DNA from: Atriophallophorus winterbourni
Lineage: Eukaryota > Platyhelminthes > Trematoda > Plagiorchiida > Microphallidae
NCBI GenBank assembly: GCA_013407085.1
Contig: JACCGJ010020011.1
Span: 62,001-126,000, forward strand
DNA length: 64,000 nt
Direction: 5' to 3'
Below, in pieces: positions 11,967 to 52,569 of this stretch. The position numbers and the translations under genes were made by a program. Under the pieces are notes generated by a model. It ran no database searches. It was given only the letters and a program-made list of their open reading frames with translations, and was not told the origin of the DNA. The stretch's first letter is position 1. Each line of letters starts with the position of its first letter.

Positions 11967-11987
11967 AATCTCCGAATCTAATTGCCG
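11967..11987 (+). CDS. micro-exon, 21 nt
   Basis: The acceptor tatctatttcatcaag and donor gtaagt flank it. The shared phase reads SPNLIA after a split GAA (Glu). Frame 0 is stopped. Confidence 0.7.
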
Positions 11988-13047: not shown

Positions 13048-13065
13048 TTTCGTTAAAAACGGGAG
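13048..13065 (+). CDS. micro-exon, 18 nt
   Basis: The acceptor gaatttatttctcaag and donor gtatgt flank it, only 90 bases after the preceding exon. The shared phase reads SLKTG; frame 0 is stopped. Confidence 0.6.
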
Positions 13066-13880: not shown

Positions 13881-13907
13881 TTACCTATGAGGATGCATCT
13901 GGTGGAT
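13881..13907 (+). CDS. micro-exon, 27 nt
   Basis: The acceptor gatacgttttacag and donor gtgagt flank it. The shared phase reads TYEDASGG after a split CTT (Leu). One alternative frame is stopped. Confidence 0.75.
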
Positions 13908-15826: not shown

Positions 15827-15850
15827 CGGACACCAAACCGACATCTCAGG
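15827..15850 (+). CDS. micro-exon, 24 nt
   Basis: The acceptor aattatttctgtacaatag and donor gtaagt flank it. The shared phase reads DTKPTSQ after a split CCG (Pro). Thr/Ser/Pro-rich, as in many secreted MEG peptides. Confidence 0.75.
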
Positions 15851-16837: not shown

Positions 16838-16852
16838 ATACAATAGGGAACG
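16838..16852 (+). CDS. micro-exon, 15 nt
   Basis: The acceptor gatatcttacttcag and donor gtaagc flank it. The shared phase reads TIGN after a split GAT (Asp). Confidence 0.7.
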
Positions 16853-22511: not shown

Positions 22512-22550
22512 AGGAATCTGACACATATACGACCAAGAGACCATCTGGTG
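22512..22550 (+). CDS. micro-exon, 39 nt
   Basis: The acceptor aatttgtttacag and donor gtaagc flank it. The shared phase reads ESDTYTTKRPSG after a split GAG (Glu). It is followed by an intron of only 65 bases. Confidence 0.7.
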
Positions 22551-28060: not shown

Positions 28061-29104
28061 TTTCACATAGAGCTTGATGTGCCTCAAAATGGAACACTGC
28101 GGGCATATTTGTAACAGCATTGCAAATTAACGTGCGATATTTAACCGCAACGCTTGACAAGTGACACATATAGGTAAATATCTGCTATATTTCAGGTGTA
28201 AGTGAACAACATCCGACTGCATTGCAGGAAGCTAAATTCAGCAACATACAATTAAAAGATGATTTTCAAAAGAAACTTGAATCATGTCATTCGTAATTGC
28301 TTGGTTATTGGTATGCCCGCAACATATCGATGCGTATAGAAATAAATTGAATATTGCGGTGCTTTAAAATTTAGATTTAAATAATATGCAATTGCGTAAT
28401 CGAAAAAAACTGTTTACCAGAGATTAACGTTAAACCATATAAAACCGGAATTTTTCACTTTGTAACAGCGCATTATTCTGATTCCATTTTATTGGAGATT
28501 TCAAATGAATATTTATTTTAGAGAAGGGATACTTGAAGATTACTGATGATACAATCTCATCATTCAAGAGATTTTAACAATGCTTTGAGTTCATGCATAT
28601 ATATAGTTTAAAAATGAAAACTATCAAAGTTTGTCACGAATACATCTAGCAAATTCAGCTTCCGATTTTACTTCCGGAAACATTTTATGAGATAATAGTC
28701 GTTGCATAAATTAGCGACGGGTTATTCTAAGTACATTTCAGTAACATTGAGGAAGTTACGAAACATTGAATTATGTCCTGTTTAGGGTAGAATACACCAT
28801 TTTGTAACAGGTGTACATTGAAGTATAACTGAATTTCCGATTGTAAATTATTTTAAATGTTTGCAATCAGGTAAACAAGCGAAATCATCAAATGAATGTT
28901 GGCAAATTAAGGAAAAAATTAAATGTTGAACCATCTGCTTTTGATCACATATTGAAAATGGATGCTATGGTGTTATGTCCCCTCTTCTCAAAAGCTCGTA
29001 TAATACAATCATAATATTGAACTCAATATCTGAAGATGAACATACTCATAAAATTAACTAACCAGGTATATATGTTTGAGATTCAAGCATACATCTAACT
29101 AAAT

Positions 29105-30373: not shown

Positions 30374-30388
30374 CTTCTAAGCCTGACC
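30374..30388 (+). CDS. array micro-exon, 15 nt, copy 1
   Basis: Donor gtaagt; acceptor AG inside ttttacatgaag. The shared phase reads SKPD. The intron around it is nearly identical to copies 2 and 3, while the exon itself differs (SEQD and PELD there). Confidence 0.55.
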
Positions 30389-30466: not shown

Positions 30467-30490
30467 GTGATCCATACACGCATATGGAAC
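30467..30490 (+). CDS. hypervariable micro-exon, 24 nt, copy 1
   Basis: Acceptor aaatctttcttttaag, donor gtaagc. The shared phase reads DPYTHME. One alternative frame is stopped. Both flanking introns match copies 2 and 3 almost base for base, yet the exon is different in sequence and 9 bases shorter. Confidence 0.65.
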
Positions 30491-31439
30491 GTAAGCAGAT
30501 ATTTTTTTCTTCACAAAAATAAACTGTTGAACCTACGTCTCCCATTTCAAATTTTATACATAACAAGTATACGTACATTACAAGTTAACACTATATTAAC
30601 TAGGTGAAAGATATATTGTAAATATGCAAACATTAAGGTCGAGGTTTCAGCTAGAACTCACAGCATTAGATTTTAACCCAGTATACATTTTTGAGATGAT
30701 TTTCCGATGCTTAATTACATCTCAGTAACATAGAGGATATTACAAGATATTAAATCATGTCATGTTAAGTGTAGAATATACTATTCTGTACGAGGTGTAC
30801 ATTAAACGATACCTGAATTCCAGATTGTAAATTCCTCTAAATGATTGCAATCATATACACAATCGAAATCGTTAAATACTTGTCGCAGTTTATTTAACAA
30901 TTTTTTAAAGTTGAACCAACTTCTTTAGATTACATATTGAATTCGTGATAATAGGATTTTATTTGCCCTCTTTACAAAAGCTCCATGTAATACAATCATA
31001 ATAGTTAACACAATATCTGAAAGGGAACACGATCAATTAATCAATTAACCAGATATCCATGGTTGAGATTCACGCATAATTTAACGAAATCTGACAACCA
31101 AGCAATGTTTAATCACCTTAAACATTTCGCTAAATATGACTTAGCTAAACCGTAATACAGTATATTTTCTCATTTATATCTGCGAGGCAATTGTTATGGT
31201 ATTTTATCGAAGTCGGATTATCGAATTATGGTTAAAAAAACAATTAAATTTTCAATAAGAACAGAGTCGAAATATAGGTATTTCTAATCAGTGGGCCGCA
31301 TCACCGCGATCGTTTGATCTTATTGTCCAGCTTACCAATTCTGCAGACCTTAAATTCCAGTCAAAAAACATACGAAGCCAACATAATTACCTGTTAAACA
31401 ACCTTTTGCTTGTGTTATTTCAAACATGGTAGCATGTCG

Positions 31440-32800
31440 AATAATTGATTATCACATTAACTATAAAATGTTGTTTAGATTCCTTATTTATGCACATAAT
31501 CACGTCGCTGAATTTTCAAATTAAATTTAAAATAAATTTATTTATCAGTCATCAAAAACATTAACAACAACCGAATTTGACTTATTAAAACATTTCTTTA
31601 TGTTACAATATACTCACACCAACGGGTTTAGCTCAACAACGAACTGGCGATACCTTATCATTGATTTCGTTCCTACGTATCTCTAACAAATATGTTTTTA
31701 TGGTTTTATATATATGACACATTATGCCATCCTCATGAAAACTTCATAATAAAAAAAGACCACTTCACATCGAAGCATGTAATCAACATGCATTTTTTGT
31801 TAATTTTCATTTAAAAATATATGCATATATTTTTGTGTGTATATAATTATTAATTTATTCTCTTCACATAAGTATTATCATTATGGAACAGGGAATAATT
31901 CCTCAGATAAACATGAATATCACATGCATTTGCGTTAGGAATTAGCTTAGAAATTATAGAAAACTTTTCACATTTATTGTGCACATCCTCTTTATTTTTA
32001 CCGTGGTTTTCTTCAACAAACAACTACAGCTGCAACAACATCGGCGGTTGCGTTATCGATAAAGTTCAAAGCATAATTCATTAACATGTATTGAGGTGCT
32101 CACATCCCTATCCCTTACACACTAATACCGGTTTCTGGATGTTTGCTGTCATCAGATGTAGACAGTAAGATCAGGTTTATTCCAAATTTAGTTGAAAAAA
32201 ACTTCGCTAGAAAAAAAAGCTTTCAATGTTTCTTAGCGACATTCGCACAAAATACAATGTATTATATCAGGTTAAAAATTCAAAATACGCTGTCGGTACG
32301 GTTCCGATGTATTACATATGAGCCTTTTTCATTTATTTCGTAACACGTTGTGGCGAAATATATGAAAGCGATATACATATACACAAGTAGCGCTTGTATG
32401 CCACTGTTGAATAAGGCTGTTACGACCATCCTGTTTAATCACATTTGTCCAAACACATTTTTGATGGGGGTAAACACATAACCATGAACCAAAATATACA
32501 TTTGCATGCATTTCCATCACACACTCACAAAAACCGGTTTCTTGCTGTTTGTAAAATTCAAGTAAGGACAGTATTATCAGTTTCCGCATGCTCTTGATAC
32601 AGTGTAGGAATGGTAAGCAAGTTGAGCTTGCACGCAACTGCTGGATATGCCTAGTACGACCAACCTGCTCAATAATATCTGTTTAAACACACATTATTAT
32701 TCCTGGAAATATGAACAAGACCTTTAAATTCTGTATTTCAGAGGATGCTGACGTTTCCAAATTTCATAATTAATTATTTTTCGCATTATCAAACATGTTT
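31440..32800 (+). repeat. array unit type A, copy 2
   Basis: Complete unit. Candidate exons: 31892-31933 (42 nt, reads NNSSDKHEYHMHL) and 32156-32164 (9 nt). The Pro/Gln exon site near 31630 has lost its acceptor AG (aacggg) and donor, so it is dead. Repeat R at about 32390-32680. Confidence 0.7.
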
Positions 32801-35093
32801 CACATAGAGCTTGATGTGCCTCAAAATGGAACACTGCGGGCATATTTGTAACAGCATTGCAAATTAACGTGCGATATTTAACCGCAACGCTTGACAAGTG
32901 ACACATATAGGTAAATATCTGCTATATTTCAGGTGTAAGTGAACAACATCCGACTGCATTGCAGGAAGCTAAATTCAGCAACATACAATTAAAAGATGAT
33001 TTTCAAAAGAAACTTGAATCATGTCATTCGTAATTGCTTGGTTATTGGTATGCCCGCAACATATCGATGCGTATAGAAATAAATTGAATATTGCGGTGCT
33101 TTAAAATTTAGATTTAAATAATATGTAATTGCGTAATCGAAAAAATCTGTTTACCAGAGATTAACGTTAAACCATATAAAACCGGAATTTTTCACTTTGT
33201 AACAGCGCATTATTCTGATTCCATTTTATTGGAGATTTCAAATGAATATTTATTTTAGAGAAGGGATACTTGAAGATTACTGATGATACAATCTCATCAT
33301 TCAAGAGATTTTAACAATGCTTTGAGTTCATGCATATATATAGTTTAAAAATGAAAACTATCAAAGTTTGTCACGAATACATCTAGCAAATTCAGCTTCC
33401 GATTTTACTTCCGGAAACATTTTATGAGATAATAGTCGTTGCATAAATTAGCGACGGGTTATTCTAAGTACATTTCAGTAACATTGAGGAAGTTACGAAA
33501 CATTGAATTATGTCCTGTTTAGGGTAGAATACACCATTTTGTAACAGGTGTACATTGAAGTATAACTGAATTTCCGATTGTAAATTATTTTAAATGTTTG
33601 CAATCAGGTAAACAAGCGAAATCATCAAATGAATGTTGGCAAATTAAGGAAAAAATTAAATGTTGAACCATCTGCTTTTGATCACATATTGAAAATGGAT
33701 GCTATGGTGTTATGTCCCCTCTTCTCAAAAGCTCGGTATAATACAATCATAATATTGAACTCAATATCTGAAGATGAATATACTCATAAAATTAACTAAC
33801 CAGATATATATGTTTGAGATTCAAGCATACATCTAACTAAATCTGACAACCAAGCAATGTTTAATTACCTTGAACTTTTCGCTAAATATGACTTAACTAA
33901 TCGGGGAATCAATTTGAACACTGAACATTTTACATCTATATCCTTGAAGCAATTGTTGGGGTTTCATCTCGATGCAAGTTATACATGAAAAGGTTCAGAT
34001 TAACCTGCATGACTGGTTCACAGCAGTATTTGAATTGTCTCGTCCAGTCTCGGAGATTTTTACATTTATGTTTCATGATTTATGCGGTCGGAATTGCTAT
34101 ACGGTATTATCTTATGTTTTAGAAGACTGAGTGGTTTCTGCCAAATCTCGCGGTGATAGAAAAAAACGATCATTTATATTCTGAATCATACTCTTTAGCA
34201 GCCACAGGCTAGAATCGAATGGCTTCAAAATCTTGATCGTTTCAACTAAAGTGGAATAAAGTTTCGATTTTTCATGATAGTAAATCTTGCGGCATGGTCA
34301 AGAACTGATTCAAAATTTGACCCTTTAATTGTGATTAATTTTAGTTACGCATCTCATAATTTGCATAGTTTAAATTAGTTGCTATCTTGTAAATTATAAA
34401 TGTATTTCAAAAACATATAATATGGTGATTTCAAGTTGAATGGAATATGTTAGGTCGTATGGTTATGAGATTGTAGGCATTAAAATCAACATTATTCGTA
34501 CCAATTATATTGAAACATAACTTCGCAGAAATAAAGCTTTCATAGATTCGTAAATCAAACAAAATTGAAATTCCAAGAATTTTCTGTGTAACAATTTACC
34601 TGTTGCGGCGATTGCAATATAATAACATTTCAAGTTGTCTGTATCTGGGCTGTGCGCACTCAACTGGCGTGGGATTACTATAATAATTTGTATATATCTT
34701 GTGAGTAAAAACATCAGTTCCGGATAAGATGGTAAATCATTGCAAATTATCTTGTGATATTTAACCGCGAAGCTTGACAAGTGACATATATAGATTACTC
34801 TGTGGAATATTTAAGGTACAAGCGATAATCTTCGAGTGATTTACGGGGAGCTCAATTTATCAACGTACATATAAACACTGATTTTCAAATAAAAATTTAA
34901 TCTTGACATTATTAATAATTTTGTTTTTCGTAGGCATACAACAATAATATTCGTATAGAAATAAATCAAATATTACGCTTTTATGACATTTAGATTACAA
35001 TATTATGCAACTGGATTATCAATAAATCTAGTTACCACAGTTTCACTTTTATTAACCTAGAATCATAAATTTTCACTTTGATTTTACATGAAG

Positions 35094-35108
35094 CTTCTGA
35101 GCAAGACG
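35094..35108 (+). CDS. array micro-exon, 15 nt, copy 2
   Basis: Same splice context as 30374-30388. The shared phase reads SEQD. Confidence 0.55.
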
Positions 35109-35186
35109 GTAAGTTTGAAGACAAAATAACAGTATTCTCTTCTGAATTCATTTCATTGGGGATTTCAAAGAAATCTTTCTTTTAAG

Positions 35187-35219
35187 AACATGAATACGCG
35201 AAGATTAAGCCGGTGAAAC
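35187..35219 (+). CDS. hypervariable micro-exon, 33 nt, copy 2
   Basis: Acceptor and donor identical to copy 1 (aaatctttcttttaag, gtaagcag). The shared phase reads HEYAKIKPVK; both other frames are stopped. Confidence 0.7.
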
Positions 35220-36169
35220 GTAAGCAGATATTTTTTTCTTCACAAAAATAAACTGTTGAACCTACGTCTCCCATTTCAAATTTTATACATAACAAGTATA
35301 CGTACAATACAAGTTAACACTATATTAACTAGGTGAAAGATATATTGTAAATATGCAAACATTAAGGTCGAGGTTTCAGCTAGAACTCATAGCATTAGAT
35401 TTTCACCAAGTATACATTTTTGAGATGATATTCGATGCTCAATTACATCTCAGTAACATAGAGGATATTACAAGATATTAAATCATGTCATGTTAAGTGT
35501 AGAATATACTATTCTGTACGAGGTGTACATTAAACGATACCTGAATTCCAGATTGTTAATTCCGCTAAATGATTGCAATCAGATACACAATCGAAATCGT
35601 TAAATACTTGTCGCAGATTATTTAACAATTTTTTTAAAGTTGAACCAACTTCTTTAGATTACATATTGAATTCGTGATAATAAGATTTTATTTGCCCTAT
35701 TTACAAAAGCTCCATGTAATACAATCATAATAGTTAACACAATATCTGAAAGGGAACACGATCAATTAATCAATTAACCAGATATCCATGGTTGAGATTC
35801 ACGCATAATTAAACGAAATCTGACAACCAAGCAATGTTTAATTACCTTAAACATTTCGCTAAATATGACTTAGCTAAACCGTAATACAGTATACATTCTC
35901 ATTTATATCTGCGAGGCGATTGTTATGGTATTTTATGGAAGCCAGATTATCGAATTATGGTTAAAAAACAATGACATTTTCAATAAGAACAGAGTCGAAA
36001 TATAGGTATTTCTAATCAGTGGGCCGCATCACCGCGATCGTTTGATCTTATTGTCCAGCTTACCAATTCTGCAGACCTTAAATTCCAGTCAAAAAACATA
36101 CGAAGCCAACATAATTACCTGTTAAACAACCTTTTGCTTGTGTTATTTCAAACATGGTAGCATGTCGAA

Positions 36170-37845
36170 TAATTTATTATCACATTAACTATAAAATGTT
36201 GTTTAGATTCCTTATTTATGCACATAATCACGTCGCTGAATTTTAAAATAAAATTTAAAATAAATTTATTTATCAGTCATCAAAAACATTAACAACAACC
36301 GAATTTGACTTATTAAAACATTTCCTTATGTTACAATATTCTCACACCAACGAGTTTAGCTCAACAACGAACTGGCGATGCCTTATCATTGAGTTCGATC
36401 ATACGTATCTCTAACAAATATGTTTTTATGGTTCTATATTTATGACACATTATGCCATCCTCATAAAAACTTCATAATAACAAAAGACCACTTCACATCG
36501 AAGCATGTAATCCACATGCATTTATGTTTATTTTCATTGCAAAATATAAGCATATATTTTTGTGTGTATATAATTATTAATTTATTCTCTTCTCTCTCTT
36601 AAATAGTTCTCTCCACATCAAAATCATTATTTTGGAAAAGAAAATAATTTCTCAGATGATCATGAATTTCACGTGCATTTGCGTTAAAAATCAGTGTAGA
36701 AATTATTCAAAAATTAGCACAATTATTCTGTTTATCCACATTATTTTCTACTTGATTTCCTTCAACTAACAGCTACAGCTGCAACATCATCCACTGGTGC
36801 GTTGTCGATAAAGTTCATAACATAATTAACTAGAATGTATTGTAGTGCTAACATCCCCATCTCTTACACACCATAACGGATTTCTGGATGTTCGCCGTTA
36901 TCAGGTGGAGACACTTTTATTAGGATCATTCCAATTTTAGTGAAACATAACTTCGCTGGAAATTAAGCTTTCCATGTTATATGAAAAAATTTTCCATTGT
37001 TATATGATAAAGTTTCAGCTTGTCTGAACTAATCGATGGAATTAGATGTCCGATGGCATTTATATCGTACGTTTCGTTTTGTCGAAACATATGGAAGTGA
37101 TATAGATATACGCAAGTCGCGCTTGTATGCCACTGTGGAATAAGGCTGGTACGACCAACTTGTTTAATCACATGTGTCCAAACACATGTTTAATGGGGAT
37201 AAACCCATAACCATGAAACAAAATATTCATTTGCATGCATTTCCATCACACACTCACAAAAACCGGTTTCTTGCTGTTTGTAATCATCGAGTAGGGACAG
37301 TAAGATCACTTTCCGCATGCGCTTCAACAAACAACTACAGCTGCAACAACATCGGCGGGTGCGTTATCGATGAAGTTCATAGCATATTTCATTAAAATGT
37401 ATTAGGTGCACACATCCCTATCCCTCACACACCACCTCCGGTTTCTGGATGTTTGCTGTCATCAGATGTAGACAGTAAGATCAGCTTCTTTTAAAGTAGC
37501 GAGTAGACGAGAACTTCAGTTCACATTACGCCATCCGTCTACACAAATACTAGTGAGATCATGTTCATTCCAATTTTAGTTAAACGTAACTTCGCTAGAA
37601 AATAAGTTTCAATGTTTCTTAGCGACATTCGCATAAAATACAATGTATTATATCAGGTTAAAACTTTAAAATACTCTCGCTCCGTTTCCGATGGATTACA
37701 TTTTAGCCTTCATTTATTCATTTCGTAACACGCTGTGACGAAACACGTAACACGTTGTGGCGAAATATATGAAATCGATATACATATACACAAGTAGCGC
37801 TTGCATGCCACTGTTGAATAAGGCTCGTACGACCAACCTGAAGGA
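36170..37845 (+). repeat. array unit type A, compound copy 3
   Basis: A full unit is joined to a second half-unit. Candidate exons: 36641-36682 (42 nt), 36779-36796 (18 nt, ATSST), 37341-37358 (18 nt, ATTSA) and 37466-37474 (9 nt). The first 9-nt site near 36905 has lost its donor. The unit is cut at about 37845 and joined to B-type sequence. Confidence 0.65.
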
Positions 37846-38600
37846 AACGTAACAGTGCATTCTTCTGATCAAATTTCATTGGAGATTTCAAATAAATCTT
37901 TATTTTAGAGAAGGGATCCTTGTAGATTACTGATGATACAATCTCATCACTCAAGTTATTTTAACAATGTTTTAAGTTCATGCATATATATAATTTAAAA
38001 ATGAAAACTATCAAAGTTTAACACGAATTCATCTAGCAAATTCAGCTTCCGATTTTACTCCTGGAAACATTTTTTTGAGATCATAGTCGTAGCATAAATT
38101 AGCGACGGGTTATTATTAGTACATTTCAGTAACATTGAAGAAGTTACGTGACATTTAATTATGTCCAGTTTAGTGTAGAATACACTAATTTGTAAGAGGT
38201 GTACATTGAAGGATAACCGAATTTCCGATTGTAAATTATTTTAAATGTTTGCAAACAAGCGGAATCATCAAATGAATGTTGGCAAATTAAGGAAAAAATT
38301 AAATGTTGAACCAACTGCTTTTGATCATATTTTGAAACCTAATGCTACGGTTTTATGTCCCCTATTTCCAAAAGCTCGGTATAATACAATCATGATATTG
38401 AACTCAATATCTGCAAATGAATATAATCATAAAATTAACTAACCAGATATACATGTTTCAAGATTCAAGAATATATCTAACGAAATCCGATAACCAAGCA
38501 GTGCTCAATTACCTCAAACATTTCCCTTAATATGACTTAGCAAACGGGAAATCAACTTGCACACTGTACATTTTACATCTATATCTGTGACGCAATTGTT
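37845..38600 (+). repeat. B-type unit, diverged copy
   Basis: Related to 28500-29250 but about 10% diverged. The exon-like site near 37910 contains an in-phase stop. The open frame 38245-38442 (NVEPTAFDHILKPNATVLC ...) is the best-preserved version of a block that is broken in other copies. Confidence 0.55.
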
Positions 38601-40200
38601 AGGATTTTATCTAGATGCAAGATATACATGAAAAGGTTCAGAGAAATTTGCATGACTGGTTTACAGCAGTATTCGAAATGTCTCGTCTGGTCTCGGAGAA
38701 TATAACATTCATGTTACATGATTTATGCGGTCTGAATAAGCAAAACGTCTCTCGGAGATTTTACAAATTTACGTTTCATGAATTATTTGCTACCACCGTC
38801 GGAGTACCCAATACAACATTTAACGACGGACAATCACGTGCAACTTTTGGATTCTTGAATCGACACGTAGATTGGGGCGTTGAGGATATCGTACAAATTC
38901 AAATTCATAGATCAACGACGTGTTACTATGATTAAGCGGAACCAGTCGAAGTATTGAAGGCATGAACACCAGGGTTTTTATGCGTTCTCTGGTTGCAGTG
39001 TCGATATAAAATCTTATAATTGTGCTGCATCGGATAAATCAGCTGCAACTGGAAATCTATGAAATCTCTGTTCTCTATTCGAGAATATGGTGAACATGAC
39101 TCGCTTTGATTGAAGTTTCATGAAAATCGAAATGCTTTGTCCATAGTTTCATCTACTTATATTCCTACATCGTATTTCGGATATATTATGTTAGGAAGCG
39201 TTTTAAAATACATTTTGAGCGTTCATCCAATATAGATTTCAGTGCTGTAAGAGATAGACTTAATATTTATTGAAATCGGTGTAAAGGGTGTGCAAATACA
39301 TAGTAATGTAAAGCAAAACAGTGCTATGCAGTTCACTATTCTGAGGCATTTTGTCCCTTTCACTGTTACATCCAGCGTCACAGACGTACTGGAATTCTAC
39401 GATAAGTTGATCGCTTCGTCCATTTGGTGGTGTTGTATACAATATTCTCTAAGGATGCAAGAGATAATGTAAGTATAGGGCCCTAAGAAGACGATTGACC
39501 AGATCAGTCGGTTGAATATGAAAGAACAACCAATCATGTGAACATATGTTTCAGAGCTTTTCTCGTGCATCATATACTTTCGACAATACCATATTTTTTA
39601 CATGGGCACTTTCGGCGGACTTGAGTACAAAATTGTATTTCACGAAAGTTGATCAAAAATATTCCGTTATAATTCATCTTTGAATTCAAAATTAAGCGTG
39701 TTAGCTGCGCTTTGAAATTGATAATCGCGATTCACATCTACAGCAGACATTGATCTAACTTAGACAAAATCATGAGGAAGAATGTTTGAACAGGTGCTTG
39801 TTGTGCTTTTCAAACAATATTTTATGTCATGCATGCAGTAAATTGGGGAGACCGTATTTGCGGTTCAAAGATTTTTGCAAAATAGAAATCAAAGCTCTTG
39901 TTTTGTCCTCGCGAGTTGGGATAAACTTGCTCTTGACCGCTCACTTTTGAGAAATTTTGTCAAGCGTCGTCCTCAAGTTTAAGGAAGAGCAGATACAGCT
40001 CTTGGCTGCTGAACGTAGATCACGCCGCCGGCGTGCTACTAAACCCCTACAACTGAGGTATGACTTTCTTTGCAAGCGCTGCGTAAGAAATTGTTCCACC
40101 AAAAGCGGATTGCCTAATCATTCAAAAAGCTGTAGAACATGAAAATCCACGCGATTGTGATCTACATCCATGGTTGAAATCGACCGGAGGGTCCAGCAAA
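38600..40200 (+). mobile_element. probable decayed non-LTR retrotransposon
   Basis: The open frame 38615-38935 includes FHELFATTVGV and FGFLNRHVDWGVED, which resemble the RT region around ..GVRQGCPLSPFLFNF.ID.. of trematode elements. At 39957-40142 a C-terminal zinc-finger-like tail (LCKRCVRNCSTKSGLPNHSKSC) fits the end of such proteins. Frames are broken in between. The assignment is tentative. Confidence 0.45.
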
Positions 40201-40740
40201 AGAACAACTCATGTAATGCAACCAATAATACCTCCTATTGTTAATAGTTTCTTTTACCCTTCACATAACGTGTTTTTTTAGAAAATTCGTTACAATAGTT
40301 TAAATTAGATTTATATTTTAAAAATATATTACATGATGATTTGAAGTTAAATGGAATGTTATTTAATATTATTTTAATATTTTAGGCACTACAGTCAACA
40401 TTAATCATTCTATTTTCAGTAAAACATTAACTTCACTAGAAATTCAGCTTTCAAAGTTTCGTACAGAAACCGAAATTAAAATGCTGATAACTTTCTGTTC
40501 ATCAATTTATCTTTGAATTTGCGTTGTGCAGTCAGTAAAATTAATGAATATATTTCCAGTAATAATAAGAAATGTGACATTCGCAAAAATTACACAGAAG
40601 AATGTCTGATTATAAATTTAATATTAGCTGTTGCTGCGGTTGCAATGTTAGCCTGGTAGTTCTAATCACTTTATATTAGATGGCCCACATCGATTATATA
40701 CTGAAACGTTTAGACGAAACATTTGAAGACGCTTAAATAA
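40201..40740. other. diverged unit sequence, no exon seen
   Basis: Contains blocks like those after 29580 (ttgaagttaaatgga, cttcactagaaattcagctt) but no intact splice pair. Confidence 0.4.
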
Positions 40741-42150
40741 AAATTATTATCGCATTAACTACGAAAATGCATTAAGATTACTCATTTATGCGAAAAATCA
40801 TGAGTCTAAATTTTAAAATAAATTTAATTTTTTTATATCAGCCGTCGAAAACAATAATCAACCGAATTTGAATTCTTATTAAATTTCATTATCCAACAAC
40901 ATTTACAAACCAACAGGTGCACCTCAACTACCACCTCGTGGGTTATCATTGATTTTTCATACGTATCCCTAACAAATATGTTTATATGGTTTCATATATA
41001 TGACACATTATTCCATTCTCACAAAAACTTAATAATTGCAAAAGACAACTTCACATCGAAGCATGTAATCCACATGCATTTTTGTTTATTTTCATTGCAA
41101 AATATATGCATATATGTATGTGTGTATATAATTATTAATTTATTGCCTCTACATTAGTATTGGAACAGAAAATTATTTCTCAGATGAACATGAATTTCAC
41201 ATGCATTTGCGTTAAGAATCAACGTAGGAAATATGCAAAAATTAGCAAAATTCTTGTGATTATCCACAATATTTTTACCCTGCGTTTCTTCAACAAACAA
41301 CTTCAGCTGCAACAACATCGGTGGCTGCGTTATCGATAAAGTTCATAGCATAATTCATTAAAATGTATTAAGGTGCTCACCTCATCATCCCTTACACACC
41401 ACTACCGGTTTCTGGATGTTTGCATACACCAGGTGTAGACAGAAAGAACAGTTTATTCCAAATTTAGTTAAACATAACTTCGCTAGAAAATAGGCTATCA
41501 ATGTTTCTTAGCGAGATTCACAAAAAATACAATGTATTTTATCAAGTTAAATATTTAAAATATGCTGTCGCCTCGTTTCCGATGGATTACATATTAGCCT
41601 TTATTTATTCAGTTCGTAACACGTTGTGACGAAACATATGAAAGCGATATACATATACACAAGTAGCGCTTGTATGCCACTGTTGAATAGGGCTCGTACG
41701 ACCAACCTGTTTAATCACATGTGTCCAAACACATGTTTGACAGGGATAAACACATAACCATGAACCAAAATATACATTCGCATGCATTTCCATCACACAC
41801 TCACAAGAATCGGTTTCTTGCTGTTTGTAAACTTCAAGTAAGGACAGTATTATCAGTTTCCGCATGCTCTTGAAACGGTGGAGGAATGGTAAACAAGTAG
41901 AGCTTGCATGCAACTGCTGGATATGGCTAGTACGACCAACCTGCTCAATATTATCTGTTTAAACACACATTTTTATCCGTGAAAATATGAACAAGACCTT
42001 TAAATTCTGTATTTCTGAGAATACTGACGTTTCTAAATTTCATAATTAATTATCCGAAGAAATTACATCTGACTCATAAAAAGATAATAATTGCGTGACT
42101 TTGATATTTAGATTACAATATTAGTCAACTCGATAATCGGTAAAAACTGG

Positions 42151-42154
<4 letters not shown>
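40740..42154 (+). repeat. array unit type A, copy 4
   Basis: Candidate exon 41169-41210 (42 nt, NYFSDEHEFHMHL). The 9-nt site near 41432 has lost its donor (gaaag). The 18-nt site lacks a GT. A Pro/Gln site near 40917 has a shifted donor. Repeat R at about 41660-41945. Confidence 0.65.

Positions 42155-42202
<48 letters not shown>
42155..42202. repeat. (TA)n microsatellite
   Basis: Perfect TA tract; left of it is type A unit end, right of it is sequence that does not continue the unit. Confidence 0.95.
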
Positions 42203-42205
<3 letters not shown>

Positions 42206-43750
42206 CAAAAATTAATAGGGACAGTCACGAATATCCAATGGAGAATGCGGAATGCTTACTCATCTAATCGCTCAATCACATTTGTTACACAAAATGTATT
42301 TCGGTGAAATCAATTTTGAGCAACTGACAGATCTCCGTTTTTTTCTAGGTTTATCATTATTTCTGTAGTTATTATTCGATAAAACTGCATTTTCTCCTGC
42401 CTGGAACTTTTAACAGTGGAAATGCAAACCCTGTATAAATGGGTGTTACTTGATCTAGTGGCAAGTGCCACTTAATATTGGAGCATGTGGAAAAATATAC
42501 CTGAAAAGGTTCAAGGAAATGCGCGTGGCAGGTTTACAGCAGCATTCGAAATATCTAGTCTGATCTCGGGGATTGTTTTTACATTTACGTTTTATACGTT
42601 ATGTCCTACCACCAATACTTCACTCGAAGACGCATAATTACTTGTAAATGTTTAATTATTAAAGAAGCACGTGAATTAGTGCGTGAAAGCGCTGGCATAC
42701 ATTTCTATTGATAGATCAACGATGTCTGAACATGATATAGCGAAAGCAGTCGAATTATTTATGGCACGAATCCCAGGGTAATTATTTGTTCTACCGTTTC
42801 AAGTTCGTTTTAAAATCACTCAATTGTGATGGATCCGATAAATCAGATTCTACTGGGAATTTCGGATAACCTTGTTTTTGATAATGAATTTATCAATGTT
42901 ATATAGGAATCTTTGAAACTAACACAAGCTTGATTAATTTCAATATGTTTGCAACAACTCACCATTCATATGTGCATACTGTACTTTTCAAACAATATTT
43001 TATGTCATACAAGCAGACCGCACTTGCAGCACAAAGACGTTTGCAAAGGATATATGAAAGATCTTGACATTAAACCCAAAAGTTGGAAAGAACTTGCTCG
43101 TGGTCGCTAACATTAAACGTATTGTGTAAAGGGTCGTGTGTAAGCTGGGGAGGAGTAGTTGCAGATCTTGGATGCTGAATGCAGATCACGCAGCCGGCGT
43201 GCAACTGACGCCCTACAACCAAGTTTAGCCTTTCGTTGCAAGCCCTGCGTCAGAGATTGTTCCTCCAGAATCGGATTGTCTAATCAATCAAGAAGCTGAA
43301 TAACCTGAAAATGCATGACATTGTTATGTACATACATGGTCAAAATTGACCAAAGAAGGCCAACCTTAAAACGACACAGGCAATGTAATCCATAATCCCC
43401 CAATGGAGAATGATTTCATTTAATCTTTTCATGATTTCTTTTTTTGGAAATATCGTTAACATCGTTCGAATAAGATAAAAATTTCAAAAATATTTTATGA
43501 TGATTTCACGTTAAATAAAATATTTTATTTAGTAATATTGTAACATTTTAGCCACTAAAATCATTATAATTCATTCTCCATTTAGTGAAAAATAACTTTG
43601 TTAAAAAATAAGCTTTCAAAATTCCTAGCGACAACTACAAGTATTACAATGTATTATATCCGAATTAAAATTCAAAATATGCTGTCGCTACGGTTCAAAT
43701 ATATCATCATATTAGCATTTTAGACCAAATCATCTTAATCCGACATTAAA
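42203..43750 (+). mobile_element. second diverged copy of the 38.6-40.2 kb retroelement-like block
   Basis: 43020-43320 aligns to 39900-40200 (gctgaatgcagatcacgcag against gctgaacgtagatcacgccg). 42490-42600 aligns to 38630-38770. More damaged, with many stops. 43560-43730 returns to unit-like sequence. Confidence 0.5.
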
Positions 43751-44175
43751 TAAATCATTATCACATACACTATACAACTGGGTTTAAATTCCTCATTTAT
43801 GCACATATTCACGTCGATAAATGTTAAAATTAAATTTAAAATAAATTTATATATCTACCATCGCAAACATAAACATCAAACTAATTTGACTTATTAACAT
43901 TTCATTATGTTACAATATTCTCACACCAACAGCTCGAGCTCAACCACCAAATGGCGGTGCGTTATCATTGATTTCTTTCCTACGTATCTCTAACAAATAT
44001 GTTTTTATGGTTTTATATATATGGAACATTATTCCATCCTCATAAAAACTTCATAATAACAAAAGACCACTTCACATCGAAGCATGTAATCCATGTGCAT
44101 TTTTGTTTGTTTTCATTGCAAAATAAATGCATATATGTATGTGTGTATATAAGTATTAATTTATTCTCTCTTCAT
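43750..44175 (+). repeat. array unit type A, 5' part
   Basis: Contains the Pro/Gln-type exon 43933-43956 (24 nt, shared phase RAQPPNG, donor gtgcgt) and then breaks off at about 44175. Confidence 0.6.
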
Positions 44176-44900
44176 TAAGTATCAAATATCTCAGTAACAT
44201 AGGAGATATTACAAGATTTAAATCATGTCATATTAAGTGTAGAATATACTATTTTGTACGAGGTGTACATTAAAGGATACCTGAATTCCTGATTGTAAAT
44301 TCCTCTGAATAATTGCAATCAGATACACAATCGAAATCGTTAAATACTTGTCGCAGATTATCTAACAAATTTTTAAAGTTGAACCAACTTCTTTAGATTA
44401 CATATTGAATTCGTGATAATAAGATTCTATTTGCCCTATTTACAAAACCTCGATGTAATACAATCATAATAGTTAACACAATATCTGAAAGGGGACACGA
44501 TCATCAAATCAATTAACCAGATATCCATGGTTGAGATTCACGCATAGTTTAACGAAATCTGACAACGAAGCAATGTTTAATCACCTTAAACATTTCGCTA
44601 AATATGACTTAGCTAAACCGTAATACAGTATATTTTCTCATTTATATCTGCGAGGCAATTGTTATGGTATTTTGTCGAAGCCAGGTTATCGAATTATGGT
44701 TAAAAAACAATCACATTTTCAATAGGAACAGAGTCGAAATATGGGTATTTCTAATCAGTGGGCCGCATCACCGCGATCGTTTGATTTTATTGTCCAGCTT
44801 ACCAATTCTGCAGACCTTAAATTCCAGTCAAAACACATACGAAGCCAACATAATTACCTGTTAAACAACCTTTTGCGTGTGTTATTTCAAACATGGTAGC
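44175..44900 (+). repeat. part C, 3' half
   Basis: Matches 30720-31440 and 57530-58260. No intact micro-exon. Joined directly to a broken type A unit, as also at 57.5 kb. Confidence 0.65.
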
Positions 44901-46240
44901 ATGTCGAATAATTTATTATCACATTAACTATAAAATGCTGTTTAGGTTCCTTATTTATGCACATAATCCCATCGCTGAATTTTAAAATTAAATTTAAAAT
45001 AAATTTATTTATCAGCCATCAAAAACATTAACAACAACCGAATTTGACTTATTAAAACATTTCCTTATGTTACAATATTCTCACACCAACAGGTCCAGCT
45101 CAACAACAAAATAGCGGTGCGTTATCATTGATTTCGATCCTACGTATCTCTAACAAATATGTTTTTATGGTTTTATATATATGACACATTATGGCATCCT
45201 CATAAAAACATCATAATACAAAAAGACCACTTCACATCGAAGCATGTAATCCACATGCATTTTTGTTTATTTTCATTGAAAAATATATACATATATGTAT
45301 GTGTGAATATGAATATTAAATTATTCTCTTTACATCAGTATCATCATTTTGGAACAGAGAATAATTTCTCAGATAAACATGAATTTCACATGCATTACCG
45401 TTAAGAATCAACCTAGAAATCATAGAAATATTTTCACAATTATTGTGCTCATCCTGCTTAATTTTACCGTGGTTTTCTTCAACAAACCGGTGCAACAACA
45501 TTAGCGGGTGCATTATTTATAAAGTTCATAGCATAATTCATTAAAATGTATTAAGGTGCTCACCTTATCATCCCTCACACACCACTACCGGTTTCTGGAT
45601 GTTTGCCGTCATCAGATGTAGAGAGTAAGATCAGGTTTATTCCAAATTTAGTTACACATAACTTCGCTAGAAAATAAGCTTTCAATGTTTCTTAGCGACA
45701 TTCGCAAAATTACAATATATTATATCAGGTTAAAAATTCAAAATATGCTGTCGCTACGTTTCCGATGGATTACATATTAGCCTTTATTTATTCAGTTCGT
45801 AACACGTTGTGACGAAACATATGAAAGCGATATACATATACACAAGTAGCGCTTGTATGCAACTGTTTAATAGGGCTCGTACGACCAACTTGTTTAATCA
45901 CATTTGTCCAAACACATGTTTGACAGGGATAAACACATAACCATGAACCAAAATATACATTCGCATGCATTTCCATGACACACTCACAAAAACCGGTTTC
46001 TTGCTGTTTGTAAACTTCAAGGACAGTATTATCAGTTCCCGCATGCTCTTGAAACGGTGGAGGAATGGTAAACTAGTAGAGCTTGCATGCAACTGCTGGA
46101 TATGGCTAGTACGACCAACCTGCTCAATATTATCTGTTTAAACACACATTTTTATCCGTGAAAATATGAACAAGACCTTCAAATTCTGTATTTCTGAGAA
46201 TACTGACGTTTCTAAATTTCATAATTAATTATCCGAAGAA
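44900..46240 (+). repeat. array unit type A, copy 5
   Basis: Candidate exons: 45093-45116 (24 nt, PAQQQNS), 45358-45399 (42 nt, NNFSDKHEFHMHY) and 45616-45624 (9 nt, VE). Repeat R at about 45850-46140. Confidence 0.65.
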
Positions 46241-46456
46241 ATTACATCTGACTCATAAAAAAAATTAATTGCGTGACTTTGATATTTAGATTACAATATT
46301 AGTCAACTCGATAATCGATATAAACTGGTTACCACAGTTTATGATTCAATAATTTGCAACCAGCATTATTCACTTTGTTTGTGGATTGGATTTGAAAAAA
46401 AGTACTTTCTTCTAAATACATTTAATTGACGATATCAAATGAATATTTCTTTGTAG

Positions 46457-46498
46457 AGGCAAAATACATGGATCTAAATGATGATTAAACCGCATTAT
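46457..46498 (+). pseudogene. dead copy of the 42-nt acidic exon
   Basis: Starts after ctttgtag like 55081 and 60387, but has an in-phase TAA and its donor acgtaag is changed to tttaag. Confidence 0.6.
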
Positions 46499-46689
46499 TT
46501 AAGATGATATTGTTAAATTCTACATCAAATTGAACGCACATACAAAAATAATATGCGTATAAAAAAAAGAATATTGCGCCTCTTTGCCATTTAGATTGCA
46601 ATATTATGCTACTTGCTTATCGATATAAACAGGGTATCACGTTTAAATGTTAGATCATTTAAAACGAGAATTGTTTTTTTTGTTGGTTC

Positions 46690-47045
46690 AGTGTTTGAAA
46701 TCAAGGTGTTTGGATGCAGGATAAACGTCCTCGTCATTGTTAATGAATCGTCATTTATGGGTACCATCGGCAAAGAAGCCATCTAACTGTAATTTGCTAT
46801 TGGCAAATCGTTACGTTATATTAGTAACAGTATTGGTACAACACTGATCCTTTGGGAGCAACGCAAATAAATATCAATTCGTCTTAATAGAAGGCCGTCA
46901 GCGTAAACTCTGATTTGTCTGTTGCTAAAATAATGTGTATCCATTCATATTGTTTCCAAACAATACCATGTTTTCCATCCATGTTTATAATCGACCGAAG
47001 GAGGCTAACAACAAACAAACCATGCTTCTGTAGCTTTTTAAGCGT
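46690..47045 (-). mobile_element. CR1-like RT fragment
   Basis: The minus-strand translation gives pieces of the RT core (KLQKHGLFVVSLLRS, PKGSVLYQYC, WLLCRW) with stops, corresponding to the ..VPQGSVLGPLLF.. region. Related fragments lie at 47690-47910, 56535-56905 and 60655-60995. Confidence 0.6.
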
Positions 47046-47689
47046 AAACCTTCAGAAATTTTGAAGTGACATGCATAAATAAACCCGCATGCATATACAA
47101 CACTCACAGAATAGCTGATATATGAAGTGATCATCGTTAACACATGTACTGCAATCGAACTGTGTAGAACTGTTCATGAAACGAAAAAGCAAAGGCAAAT
47201 GCGTTGAACAAAACCGATGTGAAATCGAGAGTAATCAAGCTGAATCGTGAGCGCTGTATTTTTCGCAATCCCAAATTTGTTTCACGGCATTACAAATAAA
47301 CGTGCGCTATTTAACCACAACGCTTGACAAGTGACAATGTTCGATAAATCTCTGGAATATTTCAGGTGCAAGCGAACATTCTCCAGAAGGTTTTCTATTT
47401 CAAATTTTATACATAACTTATAAACGTGCAAGTTAGGTTGACACTAATTAAACTTGGTGAAATATATAGTGTAGTTATGAAAAGTAGTAAAGTTTATAAA
47501 GAATGCATCTACAAAATATAGCTTTCGAAGTTTTTTCATGGAAATAATTTTGGGATGATTTCCGATGTTTAATTTAGCGACGGTTTTTGGGTAACCTTTC
47601 ACTTCTGACACAGAAGCTTCGTCAGACCAAGGTTGATAGGCAGGACAGGGAAAATTGTTGCAAGTACAGAACCTTTATGAGCAACGCGA

Positions 47690-47910
47690 AAATTGTCAAA
47701 TCGCCTTAATAAAAGGCCATCTGCATGAACTCCGTTGTGTCTGTTACTAAATTAATGTAATAAATTAATGTTACCATTCACATTGATTCCCAACAACACC
47801 ATGTTTCTTATCTAAGTTTAAAATCGACTAAAGGAGGCTAACGACAAACAAACCATGTTCCTGCAGCTTGTTCAAGCGTAAACCATCAGAAATGGCAAGG
47901 TAACATGCAT
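47690..47910 (-). mobile_element. CR1-like RT fragment, second copy
   Basis: Nearly the same as 56690-56905, including a small tandem taaattaatgt duplication unique to this copy. Confidence 0.55.
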
Positions 47911-48016
47911 ACATGAAGCCGCATGCATCTACAACACTCAGAACTGAGAACTAAGAAACGTTTATGGTAGAAAAAGCTGTAAGCATACCAATAAACATAG
48001 GACGACAAGGTATATG

Positions 48017-48018
<2 letters not shown>

Positions 48019-48063
<45 letters not shown>
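48019..48063. repeat. (TA)n microsatellite at a junction
   Basis: The left flank (gacgacaaggtatatggaa) is shared with 57015-57035; the right flank is a different element. Confidence 0.95.
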
Positions 48064-48065
<2 letters not shown>

Positions 48066-48230
48066 AAGCTAATTTGGACAAACACTTGAGAGACAACCCA
48101 AACTTTGATACGATTCACACTACATGAGTTTTCCTGTTCTTCTTTTTTATTGTATATACCTTATAACTCCATCCTATGGTCCTTATTAAGCTAATTGCTT
48201 TTTAGACCATTACAACTTTGAATCACTTTG
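48064..48230 (+). mobile_element. CR1-like retrotransposon 3' end
   Basis: The translation FKANLDKHLRDNPNFDTIHT then stop is the usual protein end. The 3' region closes with actttgaatcactttgaatt, the tail repeat also seen at 10.7 and 29.1 kb. Confidence 0.7.
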
Positions 48231-50130
48231 AATTATCACATACACTATAAAACTGGGTTGAAATTCCTCATTTATGCACATAATCACGTCGTTAAATGTT
48301 AAAATTAAATTTAAAATAAATTTATATATCAACCATCGCAAACATAAACATCAAACAAATTTGACTTATTAACATTTCATTATGTTACAATATTCTGACA
48401 CCAACAGGTCCAGCTGGCGGTGCGTTATCATTGATTTCGTTTCTACGTATCTGTAACAAATATGTTTTTATGGTTTTATATATATGACACATTATGCCAT
48501 CCTCATAAAAACTTCATAATAAAAAAAGACCACTTGACATCGAAGCATGTAATCCACATGCATTTATGTTTATTTTCATTGCAAAATATAAGCATATATT
48601 TTTGTGTGTATATAATTATTAATTTATTCTCTTCTCTCTCTTATATAATTCTCTCCACATCAGTATCATTATTTTGGAAAAGAAAATAATTTCTCAGATG
48701 ATCATGAATTTCACGTGCATTTGCGTTAAGAATCAGTGTAGAAATTATTCAAAAATTAGCACAATTATTGTGTTTATCCACATTATTTTTCACTTGATTT
48801 CCTTCAACTAACAGCTACAGCTGCAACATCATCCACTGGTGCGTTGTCGATAAAGTTCATAACATAATTAACTAGAATGTATTTTAGTGCTAACATCCCC
48901 ATCTCTTACACACCATTACGGATTTCTGGATGTTCGCCGTTATCAGGTGGAGACACTATGATTAGCATCATTCCAATTTTTGTGAAAAATAACTTCGCTG
49001 GAAATTAAGCTTTCCATGTTATATGAAAAAAATTTCCATTGTTATATCATAAATTTTCAGCTTGTCTGAACTAATCGATGAAATTAGATGTCCGATGGCA
49101 TTTATATCGTACGTTTCGTTTTGTCGAAACATATGGAAGTGATATAGATATACGCAAGTCGCGCTTGTATGCCACTGTGGAATAAGGCTGGTACGACCAA
49201 CTCGTTTAATCACATGTGTCCAAACACATGTTTAATGGGGATAAACCCATAACCATGAATCAAAATATTCATTTGCATGTATTTCCATCACACACTCACA
49301 AAAACCGGTTTCTTGCTGTTTGTAATCATCGAGTAGGGACAGTAAGATCACTTTCCGCATGCGCTTCAACAAACAACTACAGCTGCAACAACATCGGCGG
49401 GTGCGTTATCGATAAAGTTCATAGCATAATTCATTAAAATGTATTGAGGTGCTTACATCCCTATCCCTTACACACTAATACCGGTTTCTGGATGTTTGTT
49501 GTCATCAGATGTAGACAGTAAGATCAGGTTTATTCCAAATTTACTTGAACAAAACTTTGCTAGAAAAAAAGCTTTCAATGTTTCTTAGCGACATTCGCAC
49601 AAAATACAATGTATTATATCAGGTTGAAAATTCAAAATACGCTGTCGGTACGGTTCCGATGTATTACATATTAGCCTTTTTCATTTATTTCGTAACACGT
49701 TGTGGCGAAATATATGAAAGCGATATACATATACACAAGTAGCGCTTGTATGCCACTGTTGAATAAGGCTGTTACGACCATCCTGTTTAATCACATTTGT
49801 CCAAACACATTTTTGATGGGGGTAAACACATAACCATGAACCAAAATATACATTTGCATGCATTTCCATCACACACCCACAAAAACCGGTTTCTTGCTGT
49901 TTGTAAAATTTAAGTAAGGACAGTATTATCAGTTTCCGCATGCTCTTGATACAGTGTAGGAATGGTAAGCAAGTTGAGCTTGCACGCAACTGCTGGATAT
50001 GCCTAGTACGACCAACCTGCTCAATAATATCTGTTTAAACACACATTTTTATTCCTGGAAATATGAACAAGACCTTTAAATTCTGTATTTCAGAGGATAC
50101 TGACGTTTCTAAATTTCATAATTAATTATT
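48230..50130 (+). repeat. array unit type A, compound copy 6
   Basis: Candidate exons: 48408-48419 (12 nt, a shortened Pro exon, PAG), 48683-48724 (42 nt), 48821-48838 (18 nt, ATSST), 49383-49400 (18 nt, ATTSA) and 49509-49517 (9 nt). From about 49440 it is nearly identical to copies 1 and 2. Repeat R at about 49740-50030. Confidence 0.65.
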
Positions 50131-52437
50131 TTTCGCATTATCAAACATGTTTCACATAGAGCTTGATGTGCCTCAAAATGGAACACTGCGGGCATATTTG
50201 TAACAGCATTGCAAATTAACGTGCGATATTTAACCGCAACGCTTGACAAGTGACACATATAGGTAAATATCTGCTATATTTCAGGTGTAAGTGAACAACA
50301 TCCGACTGCATTGCAGGAAGCTAAATTCAGCAACATACAATTAAAAGATGATTTTCAAAAGAAACTTGAATCATGTCATTCGTAATTGCTTGGTTATTGG
50401 TATGCCCGCAACATATCGATGCGTATAGAAATAAATTGAATATTGGGGTGCTTTAAAATTTAGATTTAAATAATATGTAATTGCGTAATCGAAAAAATCT
50501 GTTTACCAGAGATTAACGTTAAACCATATAAAACCGGAATTTTTCACTTTGTAACAGCGCATTATTCTGATTCCATTTTATTGGAGATTTCAAATGAATA
50601 TTTATTTTAGAGAAGGGATACTTGAAGATTACTGATGATACAATCTCATCATTCAAGAGATTTTAACAATGCTTCAAGTTCATGCATATATATAGTTTAA
50701 AAATGAAAACTATCAAAGTTTGTCACGAATACATCTAGCAAATTCAGCTTCCGATTTTACTTCCGGAAACATTTTATGAGATTATAGTCGTTGCATAAAT
50801 TAGCGACGGGTTATTCTAAGTACATTTCAGTAACATTGAGGAAGTTACGAAACATTGAATTATGTCCTGTTTAGGGTAGAATACACCATTTTGTAACAGG
50901 TGTACATTGAAGTATAACTGAATTTCCGATTGTAAATTATTTTAAATGTTTGCAATCAGGTAAACAAGCGAAATCATCAAATGAATGTTGGCAAATTAAG
51001 GAAAAAATTAAATGTTGAACCATCTGCTTTTGATCACATATTGAAAATGGATGCTATGGTGTTATGTCCCCTCTTCTCAAAAGCTCGTATAATACAATCA
51101 TAATATTGAACTCAATATCTGAAGATGAACATACTCATAAAATTAACTAACCAGGTATATATGTTTGAGATTCAAGCATACATCTAACTAAATCTGACAA
51201 CCAAGCAATGTTCAATTACCTTGAACTTATCGCTAAATATGACTTAACTAATCGAAGAATCAATTTGAACACTGAATATTTTACATCTATATATGGAGCA
51301 ATTGTTGGGGTTTTATCTCGATGCAAGTTATACATGAAAAGGTTCAGATAAACCTGCATGACTGGTTCACAGCAGTATTTGAATTGTCTCGTCCAGTCTC
51401 GGAGAATTTTACATTTATGTTTCATGATTTATGCGGTCGGATGTGCTATAAGGTATTATTTTATGTTTTAGAAGACTGAGTGGTTTCTGCCAAATCTCGC
51501 GGTGATAGAAAAAAACGATCATTTATTTTCTGAATCATACTCTTTAGCAGCCACAGTCTAGAATCGAATGGCTCCAAAATCTTGATCGTTTCAACTAAAG
51601 TGGAATAAAGTTTCGATTTTTCATGATAGTAAATCTTGCGGCATGGTCAAGAACTGATTCAAAATTTGACCCTTTAATTGTGATTAATTTTAGTTACCCA
51701 TCTCATAATTTGCATAGTTTAAATTAGTTGCTATCGTGAAAATTATAAATGTATTTCAAAAACATATAATATGGTGATTTTAAGTTGAATGGAATATGTT
51801 AGGTCGTATGGTTATGAGATTGTAGGCATTAAAATCAACATTATTCGTACCAATTATATTTAAAAACATAACTTCGCAGAAATAAAGCTTTCATAGATTC
51901 GTAAATCAAACAAAATTGAAATCCCAAGAATTTTCTTTTTAACAATATACCTGTTGCGGCGATTGCAATATAATAACATTTCAACTTGTCTGTATCTGGG
52001 CTGTGTGCACTCAACTGGCGTGGGATTACTATTATAATTTGTATATATCTTGTGAGTAAAAACATCAGTTTCGGATAAGATGGTAAATCATTGCAAATTA
52101 TCTTGTGATATTTAACCGCGAAGCTTGACAAGTGACATATATAGATTACTCTGTGGAATATTTTAGGTACAAGCGATAATCTTCGAGTGATTTACGGGGA
52201 GCTCAATTTATCAACGTACATATAAACGCTGATTTTCAAATAATAATTTAATCTTGACATTATTAATAATTTGTTTTTCGTAGGCATACAACAATAATAT
52301 TCGTATAGAAATAAATTAAATATTACGCCTCTATGACATTTAGATTACAATATTATGCAACTGGATTAACAATAAATCTCGTTACCACAGTTTCACTTTT
52401 ATTAACCTAGAATCATAATTTTTCACTTTGATTTTAG

Positions 52438-52458
52438 ATGAAGATCCTGAGCTTGACG
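52438..52458 (+). CDS. array micro-exon, 21 nt, copy 3
   Basis: Here the acceptor is a clean gattttag, giving EDPELD in the shared phase. In copies 1 and 2 the same base is C (ttttac), so only the inner AG six bases later remains and the exon becomes 15 nt. Both lengths keep the frame. Confidence 0.6.
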
Positions 52459-52536
52459 GTAAGTTTGAAAACAAAATAACAGTATTCTCTTCTGAATTCA
52501 TTTCATTGGGGATTTCAAAGAAATCTTTCTTTTAAG

Positions 52537-52569
52537 ATGATGAATTATCGGACCGTATGATGACGGATC
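52537..52569 (+). CDS. hypervariable micro-exon, 33 nt, copy 3
   Basis: Same splice sites as copies 1 and 2. The shared phase reads DELSDRMMTD; both other frames are stopped. Confidence 0.7.

Follow-up and report, generated by a model that had tools for sequence, protein, structure and literature searches.

Duplicated cassettes with variable exons and near-identical introns

We examined a 64,000-nucleotide window of the Atriophallophorus winterbourni assembly (contig JACCGJ010020011.1, positions 62,001 to 126,000, forward strand); "the window" means this whole stretch, and coordinates refer to it unless the contig is named. It contains three copies (c1, c2 and c3) of a duplicated unit, here called a cassette, in which two predicted micro-exons, A and B, are separated by a 78-nt intron (Table 1). 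A fourth copy, c4, lies outside the window at contig positions 173162-173194. An earlier note on this DNA had described one variable exon between stable introns. Its account of exon B (coordinates, lengths of 24, 33 and 33 nt, AG/GT flanks and peptides) was reproduced in full, but the second variable exon, A, upstream of the 78-nt intron, had been overlooked. The copy length of 4.4 kb given there did not hold: c1 and c2 are spaced by 4.7 kb, c3 lies 17.4 kb further on, and the duplicated blocks align over 5.3 to 5.6 kb.

Exon B differs at 9/24 (c1-c2), 11/24 (c1-c3) and 16/33 (c2-c3) positions, i.e., 38 to 48%. The intron upstream is indeed near-identical, with 0, 1 and 1 differences over its 78 nt (pairs 1-2, 1-3 and 2-3, as in the following), and about 1.28 kb of non-exon DNA around exon B is 2.0, 2.9 and 3.1% different. 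Against a background of about 600 bp on each side plus the 78-nt upstream intron, which was used for both exons, Fisher's test gave P values of 2.4e-9, 8.8e-11 and 8.5e-15 for exon B. The copy outside the window, c4, differs from c1-c3 by 7 to 13% outside the exons and by 33 to 58% within them. The exon-limited divergence of these duplicates is confirmed as real.

Exon A shows 4/15, 5/15 and 4/15 differences (27 to 33%; Fisher P values of 2.7e-4, 6.6e-5 and 1.2e-3), and the six bases preceding it, ATGAAG, are identical in c1-c3. In c1, the acceptor reads ATGAAG/ and the donor /GTAAGT, with TTTTAC at the older acceptor place 6 nt upstream. Among the 33 aligned family rows that hold exon A, all keep the donor GT, and 31 have an acceptor AG at the older site, which gives a 21-nt exon, or six bases further on, which gives a 15-nt exon; in the remaining two (L029 and L030), the AG lies one base on. 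The six-base shift occurs in several lineages and shortens exon A from 21 to 15 nt with its phase unchanged.

When identity was plotted in 30-column windows, as the earlier note had proposed, exon B stood out, but the exon A counts of 4, 5 and 4 were equalled elsewhere, windows near 31646 and 31796 reaching 4 and 5 differences. Support for exon A therefore comes from the targeted comparison together with the family test described below. The alignment of copy 2 is much poorer past about 31.85 kb. A contig-wide self-alignment scan yielded 19 local spikes at P < 3e-5, the strongest of which is exon B (1.4e-14); 5 of the 19 fall at exons A or B, and the other 14 lie elsewhere and are unexplained.

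Cassette family and rates of change

Searching the genome DNA with a 601-bp query returned at least 54 matches on 10 contigs, a lower bound since 40 of 71 candidates were scored. Of the 58 rows that a profile search returned from the fetched sequence, the 45 scoring at least 65 bits were aligned. In most rows exon B corresponds to 42 nt, compared with 33 nt in c2-c4 and 24 nt in c1.

Non-overlapping close pairs were chosen from the aligned rows, near-identical duplicates being dropped, and exon changes were compared with those of the intron. Across 10 pairs, exon A had a Mantel-Haenszel odds ratio of 3.2 (z = 5.0) and was accelerated in 6. For exon B, the odds ratio was 8.2 (z = 9.2) in the four pairs with a GT after the exon, 1.5 (z = 0.9) in three mixed pairs and 0.36 (z = 2.15), slower than the intron, in five pairs lacking the GT. 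Strong acceleration of exon B occurs only in the four copies of one subfamily, c1-c4.

Exon-B-like units without exon A start at window positions 28522, 33259 and 50611, and two related units lie at contig positions 99838 and 130529. The three in the window, which were left out of the pair tests, each precede one of the accelerated cassettes by about 1.9 kb. A weak candidate for a further cassette exon (TAATSST) occurs in three copies with only 0 to 1 differences among them.

Several identical or near-identical units lie on different contigs (C12291, C11505, C4051, C1359, C7207 and C6437), which suggests haplotypes left uncollapsed in the assembly. In 8 kb of contig C3792 adjoining other cassettes, one more exon-A-like candidate was found and no signal peptide; symmetric short exons made up 3/4 of the candidates on the gene strand and 1/4 on the other, too few to test.

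Origin of the exon differences

The earlier note had left three options for the exon differences: diversifying selection, exon-limited conversion and a mutator process confined to the exon. A related possibility is that the exons are old and diverged and that gene conversion has homogenised the introns while sparing them. Exon B distances do remain steady at 0.38 to 0.58 while intron distances span about 0.4% to 13%, and the family-average exon B distance plateaus at 0.45 to 0.47 past an intron distance of about 0.2. Polarisation by c4 speaks against homogenisation: at 97 of the 98 sites that vary outside the exons, a single copy is the odd one (55 derived, 15 conflicting and 27 unplaceable), and no conversion tracts are visible, since the odd copies are unclustered along the sequence (64 runs versus 63.6 expected). 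Of the 15 variable sites within exon B, 11 have a change confined to one copy, c4 agreeing with the other two, and codons for the same amino acid among c1-c3 show silent differences in 0/8 of these few comparisons. Homogenised introns are thus an unlikely cause. As for exon-limited conversion, the same unclustered pattern applies, and a best-match search found no donor for the exons on either strand of the 312 kb of fetched sequence.

With the three copies taken together, the frequency of change per site was about 15 times as high in the exons as outside them. Replacement was elevated in the cassette exons relative to the introns, with 8 to 13 codons replaced and 0 to 1 changed silently per pair, as counted with the gap in copy 1 placed by hand and no codon model fitted. 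The earlier note had placed nearly all changes at codon positions 1 and 2; a depletion of third positions is present overall (12/60 differences, P = 0.017; P = 0.034 in a simulation on c1-c2 and c3-c4) and in exon A (3/24, P = 0.02) but is modest, and it is nonsignificant in exon B (9/36, P = 0.19). The silent codon count alone is not unusual in the simulation (1 versus 2.3 expected, P = 0.31). Taken together, this is moderate evidence that the target of change is the protein rather than the DNA.

Targeted hypermutation or segment replacement confined to the exon, acting without selection, would account for the sharp exon edges and the size of the effect, and the nonsignificant third-position count of exon B agrees with it. 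The overall third-position depletion does not, nor does the lack of a matching donor in the 312 kb of fetched sequence; moreover, the length changes among c1-c4 are multiples of three, and no stop arises within the exons in the shared phase. By our own estimate, positive selection could produce the effect with an effective 4Ns of a few tens. We regard a mutator, which is not needed and against which the codon evidence is only moderate, as very improbable.

Errors in assembling a repeat deserve mention, since the assembly is a draft in 15,840 contigs and contains repeated units. The differences, however, keep to the reading frame and the exon boundaries, the flanks carry private differences of their own, and exons A and B are identical within two pairs of near-identical units located on different contigs (L044/L045 and K_136932/L038), so that assembly error is the least credible of the explanations considered. 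Among the three options of the earlier note, diversifying selection fits best, given the private changes, the replacement excess and the acceleration of exon A as well.

A candidate signal-peptide exon and a chain of micro-exons

The cassettes lie within a stretch of about 135 kb that starts, at contig position 40901 and thus 21 kb upstream of the window, with a TATA-like box, an ATG and a 46-nt exon coding for MTMLRLFTLLVILCA, whose GTAAGT donor leaves one base. A 95-nt intron leads to a 27-nt exon (ttacag/.../gtaagt; ADSFDIIF). The signal peptide was called by a hydropathy scan only, which, run along the entire plus strand of the contig, returned 3 candidates at a strict setting and 22 rows at a loose one, none convincingly beside a cassette. 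The candidate at 40901 was kept because of its score, the highest, the TATA-like box and the micro-exon behind it, and later because of its copies.

Such copies of the signal-peptide exon were found on five more contigs, and all six loci keep the 46-nt exon and the GTAAGT donor. The 27-nt exon was seen at three of the six; one other locus is cut by the contig end, and at two a stretch matching it lies about 1 kb further on. Between the two closest loci, 4/27 of its bases differ, all of them replacing, compared with 7/95 in the intron. Contig C4491 carries the signal-peptide exon and, about 75 kb downstream of it and on the same strand, cassettes. From shared strand and phase, we infer that the signal-peptide exon is linked to the cassettes.

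Short exons were predicted from self-made splice-site scores. At a threshold of 13, 22 of 33 plus-strand candidates between the signal peptide and the first cassette (contig 40 to 90 kb) are multiples of three (P = 9e-5), and the single shared phase is open in 20 of them; these 20 include two overlapping pairs and three candidates inside a retroelement. The minus strand of the same region has 6/19 symmetric candidates, two of them open in the shared phase. At threshold 14, 14/22 plus-strand candidates are symmetric (P = 0.003). Outside the proposed gene, the plus strand shows no excess (3/12 at 0 to 40 kb and 19/53 at 176 to 232 kb). The better of the predicted micro-exons within the window are listed in Table 1; three further candidates there are likely false, lying inside the retroelement at its beginning.

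TABLE 1 Features of the window, with predicted peptides
Feature	Position	Strand	Length (nt)	Peptide	Remarks
Exon A, c1	30374-30388	+	15		Predicted; phase 1-1 (2 nt, 4 codons, 1 nt)
Exon A, c2	35094-35108	+	15		Predicted
Exon A, c3	52438-52458	+	21		From TTTTAG; or 15 nt (52444-52458) from inner AAG
Exon B, c1	30467-30490	+	24	DPYTHME	Same frame continues to TAA ending at 30522
Exon B, c2	35187-35219	+	33	HEYAKIKPVK	Same frame open to TAA ending at 35251
Exon B, c3	52537-52569	+	33	DELSDRMMTD	Same frame open to TAA ending at 52601
Unit without exon A	28522-28577	+		KGYLKITDDTISSFKRF	Related; exon-B-like frame, no GT, ending in TAA; read by eye
Unit without exon A	start at 33259				Similar; read by eye
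Unit without exon A	start at 50611				Similar; read by eye
Possible cassette exon	36773-36796	+	24	TAATSST	Weak, predicted
Possible cassette exon	48815-48838			TAATSST	Copy of the preceding
Possible cassette exon	58851-58874			TAATSST	Copy of the preceding
Micro-exon	3538-3570	+	33	VEYKQTELVK	Predicted; phase 1-1
Micro-exon	8072-8101	+	30	PLSNVYYAE	Predicted
Micro-exon	11967-11987	+	21	SPNLIA	Predicted
Micro-exon	13048-13065	+	18	SLKTG	Predicted
Micro-exon	13881-13907	+	27	TYEDASGG	Predicted
Micro-exon	15827-15850	+	24	DTKPTSQ	Predicted
Micro-exon	16838-16852	+	15	TIGN	Predicted
Micro-exon	22512-22550	+	39	ESDTYTTKRPSG	Predicted
Retrotransposon not of the long-terminal-repeat class	1-3011	-			Broken; reverse transcriptase and endonuclease domain matches
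Fragment with integrase matches	25403-26425				Zinc-binding and core domain matches; gypsy-like by look
Repeat frame	27592-27945	-		105-117 aa	In a repeated block of about 770 bp; four more copies

Identity of the genome and repeats

COX1, translated with code 9, is 79% identical to that of Prosthogonimus cuneatus, and other flatworms reach at most 70% among the 120 of 7,995 matches listed. On this marker, the genome is that of a digenean fluke outside the schistosomes. Seven further COX1 matches that were fetched (L050-L056) are copies of the same lineage; most are decayed and several lie on long contigs. They look like nuclear insertions, which argues that the nuclear genome is the fluke's own. 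Among the repeats in the window, the recurrent 105- to 117-aa frame may reflect no more than chance openness of the block in which it lies.

Discussion

The architecture of the sequence, the acceleration confined to exons and the number of copies are direct observations. They are probably best explained by diversifying selection on a secreted protein whose micro-exon cassettes were duplicated in tandem. On this reading, the window would be part of a giant micro-exon-type gene of a digenean fluke, starting at contig position 40901 and built as a chain of symmetric micro-exons whose junctions all fall behind the first base of a codon. Pairs of exons A (15 to 21 nt) and B (24 to 42 nt) in the 3' half of the gene would have been duplicated in tandem together with their introns; thereafter, the introns would drift at the ordinary rate, and positive selection on the secreted peptide would drive the change in A and B. 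Since all exons share one phase, any cassette could be used, skipped or swapped without a frameshift. We infer from the sequence that the exons are spliced and translated, that they form a single transcription unit and that its product is secreted and exposed to host pressure.

Several findings weigh against this reading. Four of the 10 exon A pairs show no excess; in one of them (L044/L035) the background is inflated because L035 is truncated. The acceleration of exon B is carried by two pairs of the c subfamily, the other two pairs with GT having 5/42 versus 7/204 and 3/42 versus 9/178 differences, and the division into pairs with and without GT was made after the data had been inspected. 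The most conserved pair without GT (K_99838/K_130529) has 0/42 changes in B and a stop at codon 5. The depletion of third positions is modest, and the excess of symmetric short exons between the signal peptide and the first cassette falls to 7/13 (P = 0.10) at threshold 15. On the minus strand of contig C12291 at 0 to 40 kb, 8/12 candidates are symmetric, by chance or through a second micro-exon gene on that strand. Finally, only 14 of the 41 aligned rows that hold exon B have a GT after it, and in 25 of the 41 the shared phase runs through the GT place to a homologous stop; the remaining 16 have an earlier stop, a later stop or a frameshift.

As a separate observation, exon B of K_99838/K_130529 is unchanged at 12 to 14% intron divergence. 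Protein constraint is not the cause, because the frame stops so early, and the conservation is unexplained.

Because of the homologous stop and the scarcity of the GT, exon B may instead be the start of a terminal coding exon that runs through the GT into a C-terminal tail. Only its first 7 to 10 codons and micro-exon A would then diversify, each cassette would be an alternative 3' end, and the selection would be the same as under internal micro-exons. The earlier note had stated that only the shared phase is open in copies 2 and 3, which holds, but this phase stays open past the GT to the stop in all three copies, as it does in c4. The tails are RKQIFFSSQK in c1-c3, REQIFFSPQN in c4 and LKQILFNSKLK, HRQILFNSSMK or LLKMILLNSTSN in others, each followed by a stop, which is TAA in c1-c3 and TGA in c4; in many rows TT, TC, AT or GC replaces the GT. 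Set against this, the tail evolves at the intron rate across the family (0.32 versus 0.30 at intron distances of 0.25 to 0.35), the acceleration ends at the GT in c1-c3, the five pairs without GT show none, and the GT sites of c1-c4 are fair to good donors by our own score matrix. A terminal exon seems to us a real possibility, somewhat short of an even chance, and we lean modestly towards an internal micro-exon.

Micro-exon genes (MEGs), known in schistosomes and seemingly in tapeworms, are described in one review as highly divergent genes with many short internal exons whose lengths are multiples of three and, in most cases, a signal peptide (PMC4413821). In Schistosoma, they are reported as clustered duplicates with retrotransposons nearby (PMC10526429). 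The proposed fluke gene resembles these descriptions in its predicted signal-peptide exon, its many short exons divisible by three, its high divergence, its clustered duplicates and the retrotransposons close by. The likeness is one of architecture alone, with sequence homology to any MEG neither shown nor searched for. Philippsen and colleagues describe fast evolution of MEGs and report dN/dS (the ratio of replacement to silent rates) of 1.10 to 1.14 for three mature MEG regions (PMC4350168). Unlike these values just above 1, exon change between the tandem cassettes described here is about 15 times the intron change, and the organism is not a schistosome, its COX1 being nearest to that of Prosthogonimus. 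Our searches of the open-licence literature turned up no report of micro-exon genes from this fluke lineage.

Among the systems described in the sources cited here, the nearest pattern of stable introns with changing exons is ASSET in snake toxins, where duplicated genes for secreted proteins have highly similar introns and strongly different short exon segments; the mechanism is described there as the switching of segments for unrelated ones inside ordinary exons (PMC2474615). As in that account, introns are much more alike than exons among the fluke duplicates. Unlike it, whole micro-exons change here, by in-register substitutions and in-frame deletions, and no donor was found in the 312 kb of fetched sequence. 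Bicycle genes have many small exons. These aphid genes are described as putative effectors that evolve rapidly and are recognised by their gene structure, not by their sequence (PMC9168663); they are an insect family. The cassettes would be ordinary in kind, as positive selection on a secreted micro-exon gene, and unusual in degree and in their tandem form.

Micro-exon genes are mainly known from schistosomes, and the present findings point to the same architecture in another branch of flukes. A further, rather doubtful extension is that the six signal-peptide loci mark a family of giant genes whose 3' halves are in-phase cassette arrays, each independently hyperdiversified, giving a combinatorial secreted repertoire. 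If so, one promoter and one signal peptide could be spliced to many alternative short peptides. The MEG review found no antigenic variation in worms that resembles that of unicellular parasites (PMC4413821). Because the near-identical cassette introns provide a built-in neutral yardstick, selection on each micro-exon can be measured within one genome. The idea that the purpose of micro-exon genes is to vary secreted proteins where parasite and host meet thereby becomes testable.

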